NCBI GenBank assembly: GCA_029858255.1
Contig: JAOUFJ010000027.1
Span: 1 to 35,511 of the forward strand
Direction: 5' to 3'
Source: a candidate division WOR-3 bacterium
Lineage (GTDB): Bacteria > Hydrothermota > Tepidihabitantia > SM23-42
DNA: 35,511 bases
Below the pieces are notes generated by a model. That model ran no database searches, was not told the origin of the DNA, and worked only from the letters and a program-made list of their open reading frames with translations. Position 1 is the stretch's first letter. Every line of letters starts with the position of its first letter. The position numbers were made by a program, and so were the translations under genes. Of the stretch, positions 6,238 to 6,981 are shown piece after piece.

Positions 6238-6265
6238 TTGACTTCCTTCGAAAATTGAATATAAT
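6238..6265 (+). promoter_or_regulatory. leaderless-type promoter of rpmH operon
   Basis: TTGACT (6238-6243), 16-bp spacer, TATAAT (6260-6265), then 7 nt (AAATGCA) to the rpmH ATG at 6273. The expected start of transcription falls on or next to the start codon. It is divergent from the operon promoter at 6133-6160, with 77 bp between the two -35 boxes. Confidence 0.88.
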
Positions 6266-6272
6266 AAATGCA

Positions 6273-6407
6273 ATGAAACGAACCTATCAACCGAGTCGAA
6301 GAAAACGGAAAACGACGCATGGCTTTCGCAAGCGTATGAAGTCCAAAGCAGGCAAGCAGGTTCTGAAAAGAAGAAGAAAAAAGGGGCGGAAGAGGCTCGT
6401 TGTATAG
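6273..6407 (+). CDS. rpmH: 50S ribosomal protein L34
   Basis: A very basic 44-residue protein beginning [20 protein letters not shown], the unmistakable L34 sequence, with the usual [20 protein letters not shown] tail. The open frame extends 29 codons upstream, but the family start is the ATG at 6273, which also fits the promoter. No Shine-Dalgarno sequence precedes it, in keeping with a leaderless transcript. First gene of rpmH-rnpA-yidD-yidC-jag-mnmE. dnaA, commonly the divergent neighbour, is replaced here by the HEAT gene. Confidence 0.97.
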
Positions 6408-6433
6408 TCATACCTAAGGTATAAGGCAGCGAA

Positions 6434-6754
6434 ATAAAAAAACACGTACTTCCACGAACTGAAATACTCAAGGGGAGTTCGGCAATCAGAGAGTTATTCG
6501 TACGGGGTCGGAGAAGAAAGTACGGGAAAATCAAATTTATTTACGTTTCGTCTGACGTCCGGAAAGCTGGTTTTATTGCCTCCAGGAAAAGCGGTTGCGC
6601 CGTAGAGAGAAATAGGGCAAGGAGAATTTTAAGGGAGGCATATCGAGTGAACAGGGACAAATTTAAAGGGATGAAGATAATACTTTACACCGAGGAATGC
6701 ATTACACTCAAAGAAGCCCTTGAGACCATAAACAGATTCAAGGAGGGGGGATGA
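6434..6754 (+). CDS. rnpA: ribonuclease P protein component, apparent non-canonical ATA start
   Basis: The protein subunit of RNase P, which trims tRNA 5' ends. Seen: reading the frame that ends in TGA at 6752-6754 gives about 106 residues. It starts (I)KKHVLPRTEILKG, has FVRGRRRKYG, a strand FIYVSSD, and the family signature ERNRARRILREAYR. Position between rpmH and yidD is canonical, and the stop overlaps the yidD ATG (ATGA). The frame is closed by TAA at 6422-6424, and no ATG, GTG or TTG occurs before the conserved part. The best start is ATA at 6434, seven bases after AAGG (6423-6426). Alternatives are another rare start codon or a sequencing error. Identity is secure; the start is inferred. 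Confidence 0.88.
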   Translation: MKKHVLPRTEILKGSSAIRELFVRGRRRKYGKIKFIYVSSDVRKAGFIASRKSGCAVERNRARRILREAYRVNRDKFKGMKIILYTEECITLKEALETINRFKEGG

Positions 6755-6981
6755 GTCTGGTTCTAATCTGCCTCGTTCGGGCATATCAGTTGTCCATCGG
6801 AAAGCTCCTCCCCAGAGTCTGTCGTTTTGAGCCCACGTGTTCGACATACGCGATCGAAGCACTAAGAGAACACGGGTTCTTCCGCGGTCTTGCTTTGACT
6901 TTGTACCGTATTCTGCGTTGTAATCCTCTCTGTAACGGTGGTTGGGATCCAGTGCCAAAAAGGATGGTTGGAAATGAGTGA
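6751..6981 (+). CDS. yidD: membrane protein insertion efficiency factor YidD
   Basis: A small (76 aa) membrane-associated protein that helps YidC-dependent insertion. Seen: the family pattern LVRAYQLSIGKLLPRVCRFEPTCSTYAIEALREHG and the Cys/Pro-rich end CNPLCNGGWDPVP. The ATG overlaps the rnpA stop by 4 bp and is preceded by a strong AGGAGGGGGG ribosome site inside rnpA. The stop overlaps yidC by 8 bp. Confidence 0.95.
   Translation: MSLVLICLVRAYQLSIGKLLPRVCRFEPTCSTYAIEALREHGFFRGLALTLYRILRCNPLCNGGWDPVPKRMVGNE

Follow-up and report, generated by a model that had tools for sequence, protein, structure and literature searches.

The closest described counterparts of the rnpA gene considered here are genes of the infC type, which begin at codons other than ATG, GTG, or TTG, and the overlapping rpmH and rnpA genes of Thermus. 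Genes of the infC type use AUU, and AUA starts have been shown for infC, ccpN, and citZ of S. aureus, with AUA reporters of ccpN and citZ giving ~10 to 30% of the output obtained with AUG (PMC13009471). Thermus has overlapping rpmH and rnpA genes (Feltens et al, 2003, according to the description in PMC9841429). The locus analyzed here lies in a 35,511-nt stretch of DNA from a WOR-3 bacterium (the window), and its rnpA resembles the infC-type genes in being an intact gene with a start other than ATG, GTG, or TTG, from which a lower output is expected. It shares with Thermus the gene pair and an unusual link between the translation of RnpA and that of L34. However, unlike the Thermus arrangement as far as that description goes, it has neither nesting nor a shared ATG start site, and the rnpA start lies at the rpmH stop codon or beyond it. 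A third likeness is to ATGA-type overlaps, since an ATA holds the exact place of the ATG at the rpmH stop, but a start there would be AUA, with a UAA six codons on in the window.

The gene order is rpmH, rnpA, yidD, and yidC. The rpmH gene for ribosomal protein L34 (6273..6407, plus strand; PF00468, E 6.5e-20) ends in CTC GTT GTA TAG, while yidD (6751..6981, plus strand; PF01809, E 3.3e-27) has a strong Shine-Dalgarno (SD) site of -11.7 kcal/mol. Between them, the rnpA frame occupies 6425-6754 on the plus strand, with a TGA stop at 6752-6754 and a TAA at 6422-6424 as its upstream limit. The codons after this TAA read GGC AGC GAA ATA AAA AAA CAC GTA CTT CCA CGA, and the first in-frame ATG, GTG, or TTG is the GTG at 6647, inside the conserved core and 3′ of the RNR motif. 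Read from the ATA at 6434, the gene for the RNase P protein (6434..6754, plus strand) encodes (M)KKHVLPRTEILKG..., which matches PF00825 (Ribonuclease_P; E 2.8e-15) with 56.7 bits, above the curated cut-off of 22.3 bits. It is the only rnpA copy in the studied genome, and its ortholog in the nearest relative is 84% identical. The sequence-only reading that drew attention to this gene was thus right that the frame is closed by TAA and has no usual start, that it overlaps yidD by ATGA (at 6751), and that AAGG stands 7 nt before ATA 6434 (at 6423..6426), although this last site proved energetically weak.

The locus was compared across eight species, a small set made up of the studied genome and the seven congeners found in the WOR-3 phylum, of which four are on single-contig genomes and three are the WOR-3 chromosomes CP070802, CP070705, and CP070795. 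None of the eight has an ATG, GTG, or TTG in the rnpA frame between the rpmH stop and the LPR motif of the conserved N-terminus, and a congener with a usual start, which could have contradicted the earlier claim, was not found among the seven. Because the usual start is missing in seven other species too, its loss is not an error of the studied assembly and is both real and old in the genus. Over ~17 kb of the window, none of the syntenic genes shared with the nearest relative is broken, which also argues against poor assembly here. When 48 ortholog pairs from two congeners were compared, a simple rule flagged eight, and once these were read, rnpA alone was without a plausible usual start in both. 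Changes in the rnpA core of the eight species fall mostly at the third codon position (89/84/165), indicating a frame under purifying selection. An assembly artefact behind the absent start codon, or a dead rnpA, has in its favor that the window and its relatives are assembled genomes; the relatives already contradict this explanation, as do the selection on the frame and the RNase P components described below, and we regard it as very improbable.

A class A RNase P RNA was found in all eight species and the protein-only HARP (PF08745) in none of them, and a protein-only RNase P in place of RnpA was rejected on this ground. With the RNA present, HARP absent, and the core changing mostly at third positions, rnpA must be translated, and the comparison supports the conclusion that it would need non-standard initiation throughout the genus. 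An altered code in which AUA specifies Met was rejected, as PF01171 (TilS-type, ~458 aa) is present in 8/8 species and AUA should therefore be read as Ile.

The RNase P RNAs of the genus have a feature of their own, a strongly folded module of ~207 nt that occurs in one to three related copies in the loops of different helices. There are two copies in G000, two in G007, three in G006 (with versions of 95 and 233 nt), and one in G004, with none in G003, G001, or G005. The two G000 modules are 69% alike, and no copy occurs elsewhere in that genome. The module-bearing RNAs (G000:C4:64487-65235, which is L165 and lies outside the window, and also L166, L167, and L168) gave no Rfam match beyond RNase P itself.

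Among the WOR-3 genomes surveyed beyond the genus, almost every rnpA gene starts at ATG, GTG, or TTG. The exceptions are G010 and G103, which have CTG where their relatives have TTG, as well as the less clear cases G014, G067, and possibly G044. In G014 (L014, ~1445-1480), from another genus, a TTG in the rnpA frame overlaps the rpmH stop and opens a short frame that ends in TAG, after which ATA ATA precedes the RnpA N-terminus, the same pattern as in the window. A match to rnpA is absent from 12 of 120 WOR-3 genomes (families f16, f30, and others), seven of which are at least 94% complete.

Two positions come into question as the start. Apart from the ATA at 6434..6436 (plus strand), no ATN codon lies between TAA 6422 and the LPR motif, and from the sequence and the eight-species alignment this ATA is the sole near-cognate rnpA start left in the studied genome. 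The sequence-only reading proposed it as the start and named a conserved ATA, ATT, or ATC there in relatives as a result that would support it. The proposal stands in part, since no other near-cognate codon remains in this genome, but ATA is not conserved at this codon: the equivalent codon is ATA in only four of the eight species (G000, G007, G003, and G006) and is ACA in G001, GAT in G004 and G002, and AGA in G005. The clade of G004, G002, and G005 has an ATC two codons upstream of this position, and G001 has no ATN codon between the overlap with the rpmH stop (ATA ATC) and LPR. Reciprocal loss from an ancestral ATC GAA ATA could account for this pattern, but G001 has neither codon. Of the two candidate solutions, an ATN near 6434 fails in G001, and the ATA at 6404 described below fails in the studied genome. 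No candidate rnpA start has a strong SD site: AAGG pairs with the anti-SD at ~-4.6 kcal/mol, within the range of random 20-mers and against -14.5 kcal/mol for infC and -11.7 kcal/mol for yidD, and the rnpA energies at the position equivalent to 6434 are -2.9 to -5.8 kcal/mol. Conceivably, the genus produces RnpA with no fixed near-cognate start at all, and ribosomes from rpmH reinitiate at a given position irrespective of its codon (AUA, ACA, GAU, or AGA), though we think this improbable.

The second position is the ATA at 6404..6406 (plus strand), which is in frame with rnpA, overlaps the stop codon of rpmH (AUAG), and is present in 8/8 species. This AUAG or AUAA, in the -1 frame relative to rpmH, has the same geometry as the NTGA overlaps that recur at WOR-3 rpmH/rnpA junctions (TTGA, ATGA, and GTGA, with CTGA in G103), and in G025, a member of the same taxonomic order, the corresponding position carries GTGA. 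If a TGA stop mutated to TAA, L34 would be unaffected but the ATG of an ATGA would become ATA. The genus as a whole might therefore start rnpA at AUA 6404-6406, in an ATGA-type overlap weakened by TGA becoming TAA or TAG, with RnpA gaining a short, poorly conserved tail and TAA 6422 being a base error or a recent mutation. In keeping with this, GCTCGTTGTATA is invariant, three synonymous sites included, and sister genera begin rnpA at TTG or GTG with similar tails. At the invariant rpmH 3′ end GCTCGTTGTATAR (6395..6407, plus strand), three 4- or 6-fold synonymous sites are unchanged in the eight species, as against a mean of 1.8 changes at comparable sites in the rest of rpmH; the chance of this is ~0.004-0.007, a post hoc figure for sites chosen after seeing the data. 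The linker frame from the rpmH stop to rnpA is also open in 7/8 species, with no indel over 41 inferred substitutions. However, the 29-nt linker does not change like coding sequence (12/18/11 by codon position), and its amino-acid similarity is not above that of shuffled columns (P 0.73). In the studied genome itself, the frame from ATA 6404 yields only M-VIPKV before the TAA at 6422..6424 (plus strand), which is GAA in the nearest relative and private to this genome among the eight, and the 17 kb of neighboring genes free of errors speak against dismissing it as a base error. We therefore consider a genus-wide start at 6404 unlikely, though a serious alternative. A UUG at 6400 is likewise conserved in 8/8 species, but it is out of the rnpA frame and is stopped at 6415 in the window. 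A separate rnpA promoter at TATAGT (6403-6408) was also rejected, being absent from the consensus scan and leaving the start codon still missing.

As rnpA lies in the -1 frame of rpmH and the slippery-looking run A AAA AAG occurs near the rpmH end in 6/8 species, -1 ribosomal frameshifting or polymerase slippage could in principle give an L34-RnpA fusion, and in 7/8 species the -1 frame is indeed open from this run into rnpA. We judge this quite improbable. In the studied genome the shifted frame is stopped by TAA 6422, the run is missing from G005 and reduced to G AAA AAG in G001, and the lysine codons are required by L34 anyway. Single-sequence folding of the rpmH/rnpA junction revealed no evident shared RNA structure, including downstream of the run.

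The promoter of rpmH (TTGACT, 16 nt, TATAAT; 6238..6265, plus strand) matches the consensus at 11 of 12 positions, and alignment of the eight genomes and the family shows that a gap of 7 nt separates its -10 element from the rpmH ATG in 8/8 species, a layout conserved across the family. Because of this spacing, the rpmH mRNA is probably leaderless or nearly so. A divergent promoter of like form is found on the minus strand at 6160-6133. The rpmH promoter bears on whether rnpA might, as in Thermus, start at or before the rpmH start and enclose rpmH in another frame, since it leaves no mRNA upstream for such a start. In 5/8 species no stop interrupts the rnpA frame anywhere within rpmH, and in the studied genome this frame stays open as far as TAA 6422. 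However, in-frame stops inside rpmH in G001 and G006, and TAA 6422 in the window, already refute nesting in these three by their sequences, and the enclosing frame has a single ATG, GTG, or TTG among the eight species and no ATG beside that of rpmH, making this arrangement exceedingly improbable for the genus.

The genus does have a rare-start infC, which begins at ATT after a perfect SD (GGAGGTG; -14.2 to -14.5 kcal/mol) in 8/8 species (L075-L082). The analogy with infC drawn in the sequence-only reading is nevertheless loose: in contrast to this invariant ATT and SD, rnpA has no fixed N-terminal start codon and no strong SD. Coupling to rpmH is for this reason likelier than infC-type start discrimination alone, and since none of the candidate starts has more than a weak SD, translation of rnpA most likely relies on ribosomes leaving rpmH. 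With the absence of a usual start in eight species, the sequence conservation, the weak SD sites, and the operon layout in hand, we cautiously favor a model in which translation of rnpA is coupled to that of rpmH and uses AUA- or AUC-type starts. The rnpA of the genus has lost all usual start codons, and in this model ribosomes that have completed rpmH (or, in the studied species, the AUA-VIPKV frame of six codons) would reinitiate on rnpA at such codons with little help from an SD. The rare start and the coupling together would probably hold RnpA low relative to L34. In the studied species, UAA 6422 cuts off entry from upstream, so initiation would most likely occur at AUA 6434.

Gene callers limited to ATG, GTG, and TTG would miss or shorten this essential gene throughout the genus. 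Together, the eight species provide a natural series in which an essential gene's start has degenerated beyond the usual codons, and in which one can examine how weak a start signal may become when translation is coupled. If the favored model is true, RnpA would join the few proteins that are kept low by a rare start codon.
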